From: Modestobacter italicus
GTDB taxonomy: Bacteria > Actinomycetota > Actinomycetes > Mycobacteriales > Geodermatophilaceae
NCBI RefSeq assembly: GCF_000306785.1
Contig: NC_017955.1
Coordinates: 2,046,001 to 2,110,000, forward strand
DNA length: 64,000 nucleotides
Direction: 5' to 3'
Shown: positions 21,053-62,713 of the stretch, in pieces
How positions within the stretch are numbered: the first letter of the stretch is position 1
Layout of the letters: every line of letters starts with the position of its first letter
Position numbers and translations under genes: made by a program
The notes under the pieces: generated by a model
What the model was told of the DNA's origin: nothing
Seen by the model: the letters and a program-made list of their open reading frames with translations, nothing else
Database searches by the model: none

Positions 21053-21247
21053 GTCCGGTCGGACGTCAGGTCCCCAGCCGGGGAGCCCGAGCCGGATGCC
21101 GCCGAGTCGCTCACCGCAGCGAGCCGGGGACCCACCGCAGCACTGGGGTGAATCCTGACCTGGGCACGTGCCCGGGTCGGGTAGGGCTTCTTCCCGCCCG
21201 AACCCGTCAGCTAACTCGGTAGGCGGCCACGGAAGACCACCGGAGTC
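21053..21247 (+). ncRNA. ydaO/yuaA c-di-AMP riboswitch
   Basis: Contains the conserved blocks of the actinobacterial ydaO class in order: GGGGAGCCCGAGCCGG near 21079, CGAGCCGGGGACCCACCGCAG near 21118, GGGGTGAATCC at 21145-21155, GGGCTTCTTCCCGCCCG near 21184 and AACCCGTCAGCTAACTCGG at 21201. It ends about 7 nt before the transglycosylase start. In Streptomyces and relatives this class sits before resuscitation-promoting factors and cell-wall hydrolases and turns expression down when c-di-AMP is high. Confidence 0.93.
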
Positions 21248-51219: not shown

Positions 51220-51330
51220 ACGGCAGGTCATGAGCGCCAGCGCGAAGCCCCGGCTCGCTGGCCGGCAACCCTCCTCCGCGACGGGGTGCCCCGGGTGACG
51301 ACCTGGCGGCTGCAGCCCCGCAGCCGCAAA
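51220..51330 (+). ncRNA. SAM-IV riboswitch
   Basis: Matches the actinobacterial SAM-IV consensus: CAGGTCATGAGCGCCAGC, then GAAGCCCCGGCTCGCTGG, CCGGCAACCCTCCTCCGCG and GGGGTGCCCCGGGTGACGAC, closed by P1 pairing CAGGTC (51224-51229) with GACCTG (51300-51305). Downstream hairpins at 51307-51326 (CGGCTGC/GCAGCCG) and 51335-51352 (GGACCCG/CGGGTCC) may be the expression platform before the ribosome site at about 51363. SAM binding should lower expression of the aminotransferase gene. Confidence 0.92.
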
Positions 51331-51373
51331 GCGCGGACCCGTGCCCGGGTCCCCGGCCCCCTGGAGCACGTCC

Positions 51374-57837: not shown

Positions 57838-58809
57838 TCAGGACGCCACCTGCGGGTTGACCACCGGGGCGTCGACGGCCTCGTCCGAGAGCCCCCAGTG
57901 CTCGAGCGTCTCGGTGTAGCTGCCGTCGTCGAATGCGTGCTGCAGGCCGGCCTCGACGGCGTCGACCAGCCCGTTGCCCTTGAGCGTGGTGGCGGCGACG
58001 TAGGTGGTGTTCGGCCAGCCGGCGTTCACCGTGCCGACGACCGCCACCTGGCCCTTGCTCTGCTGGTAGACCGCGTTCGGGTTCGGCCCCAGGTAGGCGT
58101 CGACCCGGCCGGACTTGATGGCCAGCAGCGCGTCGGCGGCGTTGGCGTAGTAGTCCAGCGTCGCGGGCTCCAGGCCGGCCGCCTCGTTGGCCTTGTTCCA
58201 GTCGAGCAGGATCCGCTCCTGGTTGGTGCCCGAGCCGACGGCGAGCGTCAGGCCGGCGACGTCCTTCGCCTCGGCGATGGACAGGTCGCTGTCCGGGGCG
58301 GCGGTGAACGCCATGATCCCCTGCCGGTAGGTGGCGAAGTCGAACAGCTGCAGCCGCTCGGCGTTGACGCCGACGTTGCTGAACACCGCCTCGACGTCAC
58401 CGCTCTGCACCGACAGCGGCCACTGCTCCCAGGAGATGTTGCGGACGTCGAGCTCCAGGCCCAGGGACTCGGCGACCAGCGAGGCGATGTCGACCTCGCT
58501 GCCGACCACGGTGCTGTTGTCGTCGGCGAGGAAGGCCAGCGGCGGGTCGCCGGCGCCGACGATGCCGACGGTCAGCTTGCCGTCCGCGGCGATCGGGGCG
58601 GGGACGAGCGCCGCGGCGTCCGGGTCCTCGTCGGTGCTGACCCGGTCGGCCTGCTCGGGGCTCGTGTCGACGACGAGTGCCTGGCTGGCGCCGGCGGCAC
58701 CGGTGTCGGCCTGCTGCTCGGCCTCGATGTCGGCGGAGCTGCTGCACGCCGACAGCAGCAGCGCGGCGGCCACGGGCAGGACGGCGAGGGTGGTGCGGGC
58801 GCGCGACAT
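57838..58809 (-). CDS. ABC transporter substrate-binding lipoprotein, amino-acid family 3 (copy 2)
   Basis: 323 aa lipoprotein with lipobox LLLSAC at residues 17-22. Ligand-binding domain starts KLTVGIVGAGDPPLAFLADD and shows GSEVDIASLVAESLGLEL, SGDVEAVFSNVGVNAERLQL and GSGTNQERILLDW. The last gene of the operon and a clear paralogue of the preceding one (same lengths, same DDNSTVxGSExDIA, SGTNQExILLxW and PNxNAxY positions). Confidence 0.92.
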   Translation of the reverse strand: MSRARTTLAVLPVAAALLLSACSSSADIEAEQQADTGAAGASQALVVDTSPEQADRVSTDEDPDAAALVPAPIAADGKLTVGIVGAGDPPLAFLADDNSTVVGSEVDIASLVAESLGLELDVRNISWEQWPLSVQSGDVEAVFSNVGVNAERLQLFDFATYRQGIMAFTAAPDSDLSIAEAKDVAGLTLAVGSGTNQERILLDWNKANEAAGLEPATLDYYANAADALLAIKSGRVDAYLGPNPNAVYQQSKGQVAVVGTVNAGWPNTTYVAATTLKGNGLVDAVEAGLQHAFDDGSYTETLEHWGLSDEAVDAPVVNPQVAS

Positions 58810-58839: not shown

Positions 58840-59808
58840 TCAGGAACCGAGGCCGGGCGGGTTGGTCAGTGACTGGTCGACCGCCTCGGCGCCCAGGCCC
58901 CAGCGGTCGAGGACCTCGGCGTAGCTGCCGTCGGCGATGGCGCCGTTGATCGCGGCGGTGAAGGCCTCCGCCAGCCCGTTGCCCTTGGCCGTCGCGACGG
59001 CGATGTTCGCGGTGTCCGGCCAGCCGCCGTTGACCGTGCCGGCGACCGCGACGTCGTCCGGGCTGGTCGCCGCGCTGTAGGCGGCGGTCGCGTTGGGGCC
59101 GACGTAGGTGTCCAGCCGCCCGGACTGCAGGGCGAGGACCGCGTCGTTGTAGGACTCGTAGTAGTCGATCGTCACCGGTTCGAGGCCGGCGTCGGTGTTC
59201 TCTCGGTCCCAGGCCAGCAGGATCTGCTCCTGGTTGGTGCCCGAGGAGACCCCGACGGTGAGCCCGGCGATGTCGGCCGCCTCGTCGATCTCCAGGTCGC
59301 TGCCGGCCTGGACCAGCCAGCCGAGCTGGTCGACACGGTAGGAGGAGAAGTCGAACAGCTGCTTGCGCTCCTCGGTCACCGTGACGTTGGAGATGGTGGC
59401 GTCGACCTCGCCGGACTGGGTGGCCAGCGGCCAGTTCGACCAGTCGTTGACGACCAGTTCCAGGTCGAGCCCGAGGGCGTCGGCGACCAGCGTGGCGATG
59501 TCGGTCTCGCTGCCGATCACCGTGCTGTTGTCGTCGGCGTAGAAGGCCAGCGGGACGGCGCCCTGGGTGACCGAGACCCGCAGCGTCCCGTCCGGGAACG
59601 CGCCGGCCGGCAGCAGGTCGACGGCGTCCTGGTTCAGCTCGGTGTGCACCCGGTCCTGGTCGGGGCCGGTGTCCACCACCAGGGCGCCGGCGGGCTCGTC
59701 GGCCGCGGCGCTCTCGATCTCGGTCGAGCTGGTGCACGCCCCGAGGGCCAGCGCGGACACAGCGGCCAGGACGGCGACGAGCGGGGCTCGTCGGGTACGT
59801 GCGGTCAT
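58840..59808 (-). CDS. ABC transporter substrate-binding lipoprotein, amino-acid family 3 (copy 1)
   Basis: 322 aa with lipobox LALGAC at residues 20-25 and then a Ser/Thr linker. Domain motifs FADDNSTVIGSETDIATLV-like (YADDNSTVIGSETDIATLV), SGEVDATISNVTVTEERKQL and SSGTNQEQILLAWDR. Belongs to polar/sulfur amino-acid binding proteins. Tandem duplication with the next gene; two binding proteins with one permease and ATPase suggest widened substrate range. 90 nt downstream of the ATPase. Confidence 0.92.
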   Translation of the reverse strand: MTARTRRAPLVAVLAAVSALALGACTSSTEIESAAADEPAGALVVDTGPDQDRVHTELNQDAVDLLPAGAFPDGTLRVSVTQGAVPLAFYADDNSTVIGSETDIATLVADALGLDLELVVNDWSNWPLATQSGEVDATISNVTVTEERKQLFDFSSYRVDQLGWLVQAGSDLEIDEAADIAGLTVGVSSGTNQEQILLAWDRENTDAGLEPVTIDYYESYNDAVLALQSGRLDTYVGPNATAAYSAATSPDDVAVAGTVNGGWPDTANIAVATAKGNGLAEAFTAAINGAIADGSYAEVLDRWGLGAEAVDQSLTNPPGLGS

Positions 59809-59898: not shown

Positions 59899-60678
59899 CT
59901 AGAGGACTCGCGCGAGGAAGGCGCGGGTGCGGTCGTGCTGCGGGGCGTCGAGCACCTGCTCGGGCGGGCCCTGCTCGACCACCCGGCCGTCGTCCATGAA
60001 GACGACCTGGTCGGCCACCCGGCGGGCGAAGCCGATCTCGTGGGTGACGACGATCATCGTGGTGCCGGTGCTCGCGAGGCCCTCGATCACCGAGAGCACC
60101 TCGCCGACCAGCTCCGGGTCCAGCGCCGACGTCGGCTCGTCGAACAGCAGGACGGCGGGGCGCATGGCCAGCGCCCGGGCGATGGCGACCCGCTGCTGCT
60201 GCCCGCCGGACAGCTGCCGGGGGTAGGCCTTCTCCCGGTCGCCGAGCCCGACCCGGGCCAGCAGCTCGCGGGCCTCGGCCTCCACCTCGCGGCGCTCGCG
60301 GCCCTGGGCGGACACCGGCGCCTCGACCACGTTCTCCAGCGCCGTGAGGTGCGGGAACAGGTTGAACGACTGGAAGACGAAGCCGAAGCGGGTGCGCTGC
60401 CGCAGCACGTCCTTCTCGTGCAGCTCGTGCAGCCTGTCGCCCTTGCGGCGGTAGCCCACCAGCTCGCCGTCCAGCGCGATGAAGCCGCGGTCGACCTTCT
60501 CCAGGTGGTTGATGCTGCGCAGCAGCGTCGACTTGCCCGAGCCCGACGGGCCGAGGACGACGGTCACCGTGCCCGGCTCGACCACCAGGTCGACGCCGTG
60601 CAGCACCTCGGTGCCGGCGTAGGACTTGTGCACGCCGTGCACCTCGACCCGGCCGGGACCGACCCCGACGGCGGTCAT
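59899..60678 (-). CDS. Amino-acid ABC transporter ATP-binding protein
   Basis: 259 aa. Walker [11 protein letters not shown]-loop [16 protein letters not shown] signature [15 protein letters not shown], Walker [16 protein letters not shown] and switch His in VVTHEIGF are complete. An unusual insert after strand 3 ([20 protein letters not shown]) is shared with cystine-type importers such as TcyN. ATG at 60676-60678 in a 4-bp overlap with the permease stop. Confidence 0.94.
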
Positions 60679-61634
60679 CGGGTGGCTCCGCGCGCGGCGC
60701 CGAAGCGGGCCAGGACGCCGGTCAGCTCCGCGCGGACCCGCTGCAGGGGTGTCGGCGGCAGCGTGCGCACCGCGCCCCGGGCGTAGTGCCGTTCCACGTA
60801 GTACTGGACGACGGTGACCACCGTGGTGAGCACGACGTACCAGATCGCGGCCACGACGAGCATCGGCAGCACCCGCTGGGTCCGGCCGTAGATGACGCTC
60901 ACCGTGTAGAACAGCTCGCCCAGCGCCAGCACGTAGACGATCGAGGTGCCCTTGAACAGGCCGATCACCTCGTTGACCGCCGTCGGCACGATGGTGCGCA
61001 TCGCCTGCGGCAGCACGATCCGGGTGGTCTGCCGGCGCCGCGGGATGCCCAGCGACGCGGCCGCCTCGTGCTGGCCCTGGTCGACCGAGAGGATGCCGGC
61101 CCGGACGATCTCCGCCGAGTAGGCGGCCTGGTGCAGGCCCAGCCCGAGCACCGCGGCGCCGAACTTGTCGATCAGCGAGAGGGTCTGCACGCTGGCGAAG
61201 GACGGGCCGAACGGGATGCCGACGTCCAGGTGCTGGTAGAGGTAGGCGAGGTTGTACCAGAGCAGCAGCTGGAGGATCAGCGGCACCGAGCGGAACACCC
61301 AGGTGTAGCCCCAGCTCACCGCCTGCAGCAGCGGCGAGCGGCTCAGCCGCATCAGCGCCAGCACCGTGCCCAGCGCGAAGCCGAGCACCGCGGTGATCGC
61401 GGTCAGCTCGATCGTGGTGAGCACGCCGCGGACGATCGACTCCTCGGTGAGGTAGGCGCCGACGACGTCCCACTCCCACCGCGGGTTCGTGATCAGGCTG
61501 TTGACCACCATCGCGAGCAGGACGGCGACGACGGCGGTCGCGACCCAGCGGCCGGGGTGCCGGGCCGGCACCACCCGCAGCTGGTCGTAGGGGGTGCCCG
61601 AGCTGGTGACGGGCCGGGTGTCGAGCGTGGTCAC
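60675..61634 (-). CDS. Amino-acid ABC transporter permease
   Basis: 319 aa, five to six membrane spans. [20 protein letters not shown] (HisM/GlnP-type start), [15 protein letters not shown] and the EAA loop [24 protein letters not shown]-terminal extension [20 protein letters not shown] is longer than usual. GTG start overlaps the GNAT stop by 4 bp. A single permease gene implies a homodimer. Confidence 0.93.
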
Positions 61635-62161
61635 GGGAGGTCCTTCTCGAAGGCGTAGAGGCGCTGCTCGACCGGCAGCGCGCGCAGCGCGTCGGTGTCG
61701 GTGGGGCGGGGGACGGCCGGGTCGAACAGCGGTGCCCAGCCGGCGGCGAGGTACAGGTCGCGCGCTTCCGGCTGGCGCGGTCCGGTGGTCAGGTACATCC
61801 GGGCGTAACCGGCCGCGGCGGCCCCCTGCTCGAGCAGCGCGAGCACCCGGCGGGCCAGCCCGCGGCGGCGGTGCGACCCGGCGGTCCACATCCGCTTCAC
61901 CTCGGCGGCGCCCGACGGGTGCCGCATGAACGCGCCGCCGGCGACCGCGACGCCGTCCTCGACCAGCAGCAGGAACTCGCCGTCCGGCGGCAGGAACGCC
62001 GCGGCCGGGTAGCGGGTCAGCTCCTCGGACGCGCCGCCGAACAGGTCGCCGTAGCGGGTGTCGTACTCGACGGCGAGGTCGGCGAACAGCGGCGCGGCCA
62101 GCGGGTCGTCGAGGTGCACGCGCACCACCTGGAGGGCGTGCGGGGACAGGGACGTGGACAT
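61631..62161 (-). CDS. GNAT-family N-acetyltransferase
   Basis: 176 aa. Acetyl-CoA loop [20 protein letters not shown] near residue 95 gives the R/Q-x-x-G-x-A motif; [15 protein letters not shown] and [19 protein letters not shown] complete the fold. First structural gene of the ABC operon and coupled to the permease by 4 bp. In Bacillus the ytmI (SnaA) acetyltransferase heads a similar cystine-type transporter operon and acetylates S-modified cysteine; the same role is a reasonable inference here. Confidence 0.88.
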
Positions 62162-62186
62162 GCGGGAGGAGCTCCTGTGCGGAGGC

Positions 62187-62206
62187 GCGCGCCGACGAGG
62201 GCGCGC
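62187..62206 (-). promoter_or_regulatory. Hairpin between leader peptide and GNAT gene
   Basis: GCGCGCC / GGCGCGC, perfect 7-bp stem with a 6-nt loop, lying 26 nt after the leader-peptide stop and followed by the GNAT ribosome site. Position fits an element opened or closed by ribosomes paused on the leader. Confidence 0.5.
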
Positions 62207-62231
62207 GGAGGTGGGACGGGAGGGCTGCGGG

Positions 62232-62324
62232 TCAGCGACAGAGCGCGCTGTCGGTGCGCAGCAGGTCCACGGTCGGCCGGCCGACCAGGTCGGTGGCGGC
62301 GGCACGGATGCCGGTCTGTCCCAC
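62232..62324 (-). CDS. Cysteine-type leader peptide (30 aa)
   Basis: GTG at 62322-62324 to TGA, preceded by GAGGAG. The peptide starts MGQTGIRAAATDLVGRP and ends TVDLLRTDSALCR. The block VDLLRTDSALC matches the short leader peptides of actinobacterial sulfur genes, in which the Cys codon near the end makes translation sense cysteine supply. It lies between the SAM-IV riboswitch and the GNAT gene, so both signals act on one transcript. Confidence 0.75.
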   Translation of the reverse strand: MGQTGIRAAATDLVGRPTVDLLRTDSALCR

Positions 62325-62374
62325 GGGTGCTGCTCCTCGTTCGTCCCCTCGGGAGGGGAGGCCTCTGCTTGCCG

Positions 62375-62482
62375 GGCGCGGACGCGCACGGCCAGGTCGT
62401 CACCCGGGGCACCCCGTCGCAGGGAGGGTTGCCGGCCAGCGAGCCGGGGCTTGTCGCTGGCGCTCAGGACCTGGCAGGGACG
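62375..62482 (-). ncRNA. SAM-IV riboswitch (reverse strand)
   Basis: Reverse-strand sequence AGGTCCTGAGCGCCAGCGAC, CAAGCCCCGGCTCGCTGG, CCGGCAACCCTCCCTGCGAC and GGGGTGCCCCGGGTGACGAC mirrors the element at 51220 nearly base for base. P1 pairs 62468-62474 with 62392-62398 (seven bp). A short CCCCT/AGGGG hairpin follows at about 62343-62358, just before the leader-peptide ribosome site, and may be the expression platform. Confidence 0.92.
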
Positions 62483-62520
62483 ATAGGGGCACACCCGGCG
62501 ACGCGTCAATTACGATCGAC
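62480..62520 (-). promoter_or_regulatory. Promoter/operator block of the ABC operon, shared with 51178
   Basis: Reverse strand: GTCGATCG (62513-62520), three bases, TTGACG -35 (62504-62509), 18-nt spacer, TATCGT -10 (62480-62485). The start would fall at the 5' end of the riboswitch. Upstream bases CTCAcaATG also resemble the other site. The same block is within reach of the divergent leader/FAD gene. Confidence 0.65.
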
Positions 62521-62617: not shown

Positions 62618-62713
62618 GTGCCCCGCACCCCGCTGGTCTGCCGCCGGCACGTCGACCTCCTGCGCACGGCGAGCGCGCAGTGTCAGCGCACGGTCGGAAC
62701 CCCGCGTCCCTGA
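62618..62713 (+). CDS. Cysteine-type leader peptide (31 aa), divergent
   Basis: GTG at 62618 after GGAAGGAG, TGA at 62711-62713, 22 nt before the FAD-protein ATG. Peptide begins MPRTPLVCRRHVDLLRTASA and continues QCQRTVGTPRP. RRHVDLLRTASAQC is the classical actinobacterial sulfur leader signature with Cys codons (TGC, TGT). Shares VDLLRTxSAxC with the opposite-strand leader at 62232. Confidence 0.8.
   Translation: MPRTPLVCRRHVDLLRTASAQCQRTVGTPRP

Follow-up and report, generated by a model that had tools for sequence, protein, structure and literature searches.

A conserved SAM-IV riboswitch followed by a putative cysteine-type leader peptide ahead of a GNAT-ABC operon in Modestobacter italicus

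The window analysed here, a 64,000-nucleotide stretch of the Modestobacter italicus genome (contig NC_017955.1), carries on its minus strand a promoter-like sequence, a SAM-IV riboswitch aptamer, a short open reading frame that starts with GTG behind a GAGGAG Shine-Dalgarno (SD) sequence, a spacer with a GC hairpin, and a run of genes for a GNAT N-acetyltransferase and ABC transporter components (Table 1). A first-pass annotation of this DNA had proposed just this order of parts, and each of them could be located on that strand. By the covariance-model criterion the aptamer is a SAM-IV riboswitch, matched over model positions 1-116 with an E value of 2.5e-15 and a score (92.0 bits) well above the gathering score of 38; binding of SAM and an effect on expression are predicted from this assignment. 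The gap between the aptamer and the start of the short reading frame measures 35 nt. The frame translates as MGQTGIRAAATDLVGRPTVDLLRTDSALCR followed by a stop, with the C-terminal end LVGRPTVDLLRTDSALCR, and its single Cys codon is a UGU at 62240-62238.

Table 1. Features of the minus-strand locus and of the divergent leader beside it, in window coordinates.
Feature	Position	Strand	Basis
Second, divergent leader, VPRTPLVCRRHVDLLRTASAQCQRTVGTPRP and stop	62618..62713	+	NF042934, 28.3 bits, above cut-off 27
Conserved box abutting the -35, here CAATGTCTATCAAGTCGATCGTAA	62510..62533	-	Consensus over 22 relatives
Putative promoter TTGACG-18-TATCGT, ~8 nt 5' of aptamer	62480..62509	-	Sequence match
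SAM-IV riboswitch aptamer	62360..62471	-	RF00634, 92.0 bits, full length
Shine-Dalgarno GAGGAG of leader	62333..62338	-	Sequence
Leader peptide ORF, GTG start, 30 codons	62232..62324	-	ORF list; NF042934, 18.4 bits
C-rich, G-poor spacer with GC hairpin; rut-like candidate	62172..62231	-	Base skew, fold
GNAT N-acetyltransferase, first structural gene, SD AGGAG	61631..62161	-	PF00583, 3.6e-11
ABC permease, polar amino acid type	60675..61634	-	PF00528, 7.9e-23
ABC ATPase	59899..60681	-	PF00005, 9.8e-34
Solute-binding lipoprotein 1	58840..59808	-	PF00497, 6.6e-24
Solute-binding lipoprotein 2	57838..58809	-	PF00497, 1.9e-18

Among NCBIfam models, the permease finds its top match in the cystine permease model PRK15100 (1.5e-38, below the cut-off of that model) and scores above the cut-off of TIGR01726. 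Distant homologues of the GNAT protein in other families adjoin a luciferase-like monooxygenase frame (PF00296, locus L056) or stand in frame with an FMN reductase (PF03358, L058), and others look alike by eye. The operon would serve to import organic sulfur compounds and put them to use, and it may resemble the ytmI/tcyJKLMN operon of Bacillus. The host genome, a single 5.58-Mb contig, contains three SAM-IV sites. A second one within the window, at 51226-51339 on the plus strand (94.6 bits), lies directly before a gene for a class V aminotransferase (cysteine-desulfurase-like) and opposite an FMN reductase gene. The stretch between this riboswitch and the aminotransferase gene contains no leader motif. 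The window also carries a c-di-AMP riboswitch (RF00379, 76.7 bits) at 21090-21240 on the plus strand.

The putative promoter consists of a -35 TTGACG (62509-62504) and a -10 TATCGT (62485-62480) separated by an 18-nt spacer, and its position just 5' of the aptamer predicts a transcription start immediately ahead of the riboswitch. The arrangement TTGACG-18-TAnnnT is kept at all 22 orthologous loci tested, at a distance of about 7 to 12 nt from the aptamer, whose start is approximate in three of them. Abutting the -35 is a box with the consensus CAaT.TCtACCAAgtCGATCGgatTTGACG over 22 relatives, also written CAaT.TCtACCAAgtCGATCGgat, which runs directly into TTGACG. Its core, CAARYCGAT, is present at 20 of 22 leader-type loci, as against 6 of 49 other SAM-IV sites and none of 79 metY-like ones, and marks the box as a possible activator or operator site. 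Similar letters precede some SAM-IV loci of the cysteine-desulfurase type (L001, L004, L006). The box could possibly be the site of a shared sulfur activator.

The riboswitch and the leader have been kept together in the family Geodermatophilaceae. A 27-nt degenerate pattern for the leader end, RTDS[AS]LCR and a stop, occurs exactly once in each of 22 of the 112 family genomes, its reversed control has no match in the same 112 genomes, and coordinate comparison places a SAM-IV riboswitch shortly upstream on the same strand at all 22 sites. Reading of the sequence behind 150 of the family's SAM-IV sites (of which there are at least that many) showed the leader at 23: in frame at 22, and with a broken frame yet an intact leader end at one (L077, from the draft genome G085), where natural loss and assembly error cannot be told apart. 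The 23rd locus, under another genus label of the family, ends in RTSSALCR and a stop. These counts stem from one lineage and are not independent events. In most of the last nine codons, moreover, the pattern prescribed the first two letters, and it called for AGY at Ser and for a CGN-TGA end; for 21 of the 22 leaders the end residues, the AGC codon and the terminal Cys-Arg-stop are thus partly built in, and the third letters, the choice between UGU and UGC and the upstream part of the leader are not. A single motif near the stop, [VI]D[LFMC]x7C, retrieves the same 22 leaders and three more of the 150 sites, and is absent from the other 125, the frame-broken L077 among them; leaders lacking the motif would escape this count. 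The three further sites carry classical leaders of the NF042934 type (see below), RRHIDLQLVTSALCP, before a solute-binding lipoprotein gene; these RRHIDLQLVTSALC leaders were recognised on reading 13 odd SAM-IV loci.

Outside the family the pattern is scarce. It occurs in 1 of 394 genomes of the class, namely the window's own, and 18 times in a collection of 84,980 species with one genome per species, where 17 matches belong to Geodermatophilaceae (Modestobacter, Klenkia, Geodermatophilus, Trujillonella, Goekera and one further family member). The remaining match, on a contig of Tateyamaria, lacks an upstream SAM-IV core according to a simple core pattern; the same simple pattern fails at L224 of Geodermatophilus nigrescens, whose likely counterpart G046:C4 has a scored SAM-IV riboswitch upstream of the leader. 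The first gene after the leader encodes a GNAT protein at 19 of 23 loci, a luciferase-like monooxygenase at L030, L064 and L066, and the permease at L072 (identified by Pfam at L064, L066 and L072 and by reading at L030). That the first gene varies while the riboswitch-leader module stays was counted in favour of a model in which the two elements act in series.

The chance that the short frame is one of the many open frames that GC-rich genomes provide, here accidentally lodged between a riboswitch and a gene, is negligible; such a chance origin is refuted by the conservation of the leader end in 22 of 112 genomes and at 23 of 150 SAM-IV sites, with no match for the reversed control. Several observations further argue that the frame is translated. 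An in-frame ATG or GTG preceded by GAGGAG or GGGAGG is found at 22 of the 23 leader loci. Because the search pattern left little freedom at the first two positions of the last nine codons, coding was assessed in the ten codons 5' of the pattern. There, the variable columns number 3 of 10 at first, 3 of 10 at second and 10 of 10 at third codon positions (Fisher p 0.0003 over 18 unique in-frame sequences). The N-terminal half of the leader is free in both length and sequence, and the stretch LVGRxxx[VI]DLx, which lies outside the search pattern, is conserved along with the UGU. The leader is thus a conserved short ORF with an SD sequence, a start codon and a Cys codon near its end, as expected of a cysteine leader, and its translation is supported by this sequence evidence.

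A different account of the same conservation, that the conserved stretch is RNA structure belonging to the expression platform of the riboswitch and not a translated leader, is very improbable. It draws on the third codon positions within the pattern, only two of which vary among the eight sense codons, and on the 4-mer of the Ser-Ala codons, which in 42 of 57 leaders finds a complement in the 42 nt that follow the Cys codon, as compared with a mean of 16.6 and a maximum of 26 in 200 shuffles that keep base composition only, most of the letters concerned having been fixed by the search pattern in 21 of the 57. Against it stand the in-frame starts with SD sequences, the upstream codons with their variation at 10 of 10 third positions versus 6 of 20 at the first two codon positions, and the recurrence of the same peptide motif in leaders that lack a SAM-IV-like core. 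The six invariant third positions hint at an additional RNA-level constraint, which the serial model leaves unexplained.

The peptide motif connects the leader with a recognised family. With an E value of 0.0012 and a score below the cut-off of 27 bits, the minus-strand leader is by sequence a relative of the putative leader peptides described by NCBIfam NF042934 (cis_reg_atten), a model whose above-cut-off matches occur in 104 of the 112 family genomes and for which a literature search found no paper by name among the matches listed. The core [VI]DLxRxxSAxC, read off 30 fetched matches of the family, is present in the leader with the same spacing and the same UGU. The GNAT-type leader thus shares with NF042934 the core motif, the D-x8-C spacing, the UGU and the C-rich spacer, and differs from it in scoring below the cut-off and in carrying LVGRxxx in place of RRH. 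When the 30 matches are pooled with the SAM-IV leaders and the window's plus-strand leader, [VI]D-x8-C holds in 57 of 58 sequences, the Cys spacing in the 30 being partly built in through selection by profile and regular expression. The Cys codon of the motif is UGU in 55 of 57 leaders, whereas 14 ORFs of the window use UGU once and UGC 29 times. A Ser lies three residues before the Cys in 28 of the 30 matches and is encoded by AGC in all 28, compared with 63 of 195 Ser codons in the window's genes; in the GNAT-type set, AGY at this position was required by the search pattern. The last codon and the stop read CGCTGA in 19 of the 30. Together, the UGU, the AGC and the CGCTGA end point to a constraint at the nucleotide level. 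As judged by a simple pattern, none of the 30 has a SAM-IV-like core in the 400 nt before it. As the UGU and the C-rich spacer are common to these leaders, they provide no test of a serial link; they speak to how the leader works and not to its connection with the riboswitch.

The plus-strand leader is a second NF042934-type leader, which ends 22 nt before a divergent gene for an FAD-NAD(P)-binding protein and has no SAM-IV riboswitch near it on its own strand. The two leaders diverge from a shared intergenic region. Similar divergent leaders were found at the corresponding loci of six relatives (L030, L034, L037, L038, L039, L041).

The spacer between the leader stop and the GNAT gene has a C-over-G skew of +0.35, a value reached by 0.66% of the 60-mers in the window. 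Post-stop segments have a skew of +0.34 at the 23 leader loci and likewise of +0.34 after the 30 other NF042934 leaders, against reference values of 0.00 (sd 0.14) for the window and 0.05 (sd 0.17) for the sequence after the aptamer at 127 SAM-IV loci outside the leader class, 13 of which reach the leaders' median. The GC hairpin, at about 62207-62186, was rejected as a specific element, its position and sequence differing between relatives, and a terminator hairpin in the spacer was likewise abandoned as a strong claim: the fold z score, -1.83 here, falls below -1 at 8 of 23 loci versus 29 of 150 random window segments, a weak excess across relatives (p 0.04), and in 10 of the 30 spacers of other NF042934 leaders.

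How the two elements relate to each other is best seen from where translation begins. Counted from aptamer nt 1, the median offset of the leader start is 143.5 nt (interquartile range 141-145; found at 22 of 23 loci), close to where structural genes start at other SAM-IV loci, namely 150.5 nt in a mixed class (42 of 48 found; the class includes the three classical-leader loci, in which the long gene begins at 393-441) and 160 nt for metY-like genes (79 of 79 found). The leader thus occupies the slot that structural genes occupy elsewhere, which points to a series running from riboswitch to leader to operon. With its start directly under the riboswitch and the main gene further downstream, the leader has the layout of a riboswitch-controlled upstream ORF (uORF), and the riboswitch probably gates the leader, which in turn probably gates the operon. 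The proposed order of parts, with one transcript that carries the riboswitch and a translated leader, is supported by the promoter, the start slot and the codon conservation in relatives. Folding of 22 loci, with pseudoknots ignored, revealed no consistent anti-SD sequence for the leader SD, whose mean pairing was 0.45 with and 0.46 without aptamer nt 1-80. An anti-SD for the first gene was also considered and dropped: at 19 loci the pairing probability showed no consistent direction between the leader folded and the leader masked.

Alternatively, the uORF would be mainly a coupling device, in which SAM-IV controls initiation, and translation of a peptide whose sequence barely matters opens the mRNA or blocks Rho for the genes downstream without any sensing of cysteine. 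This alternative is unlikely, yet it is the most serious of those considered here. At some loci the ORF in the slot overlaps the start of the main gene by eye, both without Cys (L007b, L146) and with it (L119, L158), and mini-ORFs without Cys, VSKRMR and a stop, occur at seven loci of another family. Bare coupling, on the other hand, accounts poorly for the conservation of LVGRxxx[VI]DLx and the UGU beside a free N-terminal half, and the leader stop lies 67-160 nt ahead of the first gene wherever a start was assigned, which is too far for simple stop-start coupling.

We favour the reading in which two sulfur sensors, the SAM-IV riboswitch and a cysteine-type leader, act in series on one mRNA, and give it a probability of roughly 0.55. 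Transcription would start about 8 nt before the aptamer, and SAM-IV would control the translation start of the leader, such that high SAM turns both leader and operon off. At low SAM the leader would be read, and the nascent chain [VI]DLxRxxSAx together with the single slow wobble codon UGU would make the ribosome wait whenever charged tRNA-Cys is scarce. Standing two codons before the stop, the waiting ribosome would shield the C-rich post-stop segment and allow RNA polymerase to reach the genes; with ample cysteine it would leave, and Rho would stop transcription in the spacer. The operon would accordingly be on when SAM and cysteine are both low. Sequence supports the elements of this model and their conservation, the start slot, the coding of the leader, the preference for UGU and the C richness of the spacer. 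We infer the transcription start, the direction of the SAM effect, the cysteine signal, the ribosomal pause and the part played by Rho, for which the C-rich spacer and published precedents are the grounds. Of the original proposal that SAM level and cysteine supply gate the same operon, the serial arrangement fits the data best, on account of the start slot, and cysteine as the second signal is plausible given the fixed UGU, the leader family and the sulfur context.

The end of the leader could instead be the site of action. TnaC is the model for nascent-peptide arrest at a stop codon, and a comparable arrest here, with a free small molecule and not tRNA-Cys charging as the signal, is improbable, more so than coupling. 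Cys-Arg-stop is found in all 22 in-frame leaders, having been required by the search pattern for 21 of them; a looser regular expression over the 150 SAM-IV sites, with tails of as many as 15 residues permitted, yielded one addition, L155, which also ends in Cys-Arg-stop, and the C-rich segment follows the stop directly. In NF042934-type leaders, however, the motif keeps a fixed distance from the Cys and not from the stop, which comes 1 to 9 residues after the Cys, and this points away from the stop and towards the Cys codon, even if the fixed distance in the 30 family matches is partly built in by profile and regular-expression selection.

A wider survey of the class drew on the highest-scoring SAM-IV matches and not on a random sample. 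A short Cys-containing ORF occupies the start slot at 12 of 108 class SAM-IV loci, spread over eight family labels, compared with a mean of 3.0 and a maximum of 7 in 60 shuffles; examples, each ending in a stop, are MCCCRMN, MARSPMRCCCQ, MRASLHPLTRCCCR and VTCRMRR. Of these 12 loci, L235 and L328 have the appearance of chance ORFs. The hexamer CGAATG, often an in-frame Arg-Met, is present at 16 loci as against 2.35 expected by shuffle (maximum 7 in 100). An NF042934-type leader, RRHVDLLRVSSALCRR and a stop, stands at 1 of 110 class SAM-IV sites (L302), in another family. This excess of slot ORFs over shuffles indicates that SAM-IV before a leader ORF may be a recurrent arrangement. More speculatively, and with the odds leaning against it, actinomycete SAM-IV riboswitches could repeatedly regulate leader ORFs of several unrelated types, such that a SAM gate is followed by a cysteine or methionine gate, with the NF042934-type leaders acting as nascent-chain-assisted sensors that need one rare UGU. 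Two further observations concern the ORFs themselves. Very short Cys ORFs follow SAM-IV at ten loci under seven family labels (L229, L232, L234, L237, L238, L246, L247, L296, L316, L324), the next gene being O-acetylhomoserine-sulfhydrylase-like (W[SA]FET, by eye). The VSKRMR ORF, six codons long, lies in the start slot well before the first long gene at each of its seven loci (L244, L249, L251, L256, L257, L261, L262).

Among the matches listed from the open-licence literature, none reports a SAM-IV riboswitch with a cysteine-type leader behind it, and the words "leader peptide" are absent from the text of a paper on contiguous riboswitches. The arrangement had been called unusual in the first-pass annotation; this needs qualifying in that the pair is conserved and recurs both in a second operon type of the family and at a locus of another family, and in that control of a uORF by a riboswitch has already been published for other riboswitches. 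If the serial model is true, one mRNA would report on both ends of the sulfur pathway, on SAM and on cysteine, through a riboswitch that gates a peptide-based sensor, and the pair would offer a compact natural two-input system as well as a handle on the NF042934 leaders.

Each half of the design has relatives. In the Mbox of M. tuberculosis, a riboswitch controls a small uORF with Rho-dependent termination (PMC12810186), and the likeness extends to the placement of the riboswitch directly over a conserved small ORF before an operon, and to a translational platform, with Rho acting in the Mbox; the Mbox differs in its ligand, Mg2+, and in the accessible part of that paper the role of the uORF is given as unclear and the word "cysteine" does not appear. 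The B12 riboswitches of M. tuberculosis metE and ppe2 likewise combine a riboswitch and a translated uORF in one leader, the ppe2 uORF being required for expression, and differ in their ligand, the accessible text mentioning no second metabolite signal (PMC11260477). Actinobacterial cysteine leaders, including mycobacterial ones, lack a terminator, and Rho has been suggested for them (PMC1262725); they resemble the present leader in being short ORFs that precede sulfur genes and carry Cys close to the stop (PMC1262725; Canestrari 2020), but they carry runs of Cys codons, with no riboswitch mentioned in the portion of the source available (PMC1262725), in place of one UGU within a conserved peptide motif. 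A SAM-I riboswitch of Xanthomonas also senses uncharged tRNA-fMet and thus joins SAM with a second signal of amino acid supply on one leader, but there a single platform binds the tRNA, and the part of the paper available mentions no leader peptide (PMC7270179). Control of a uORF by a riboswitch and cysteine leaders are each already known; what is new here is their combination and its conservation.
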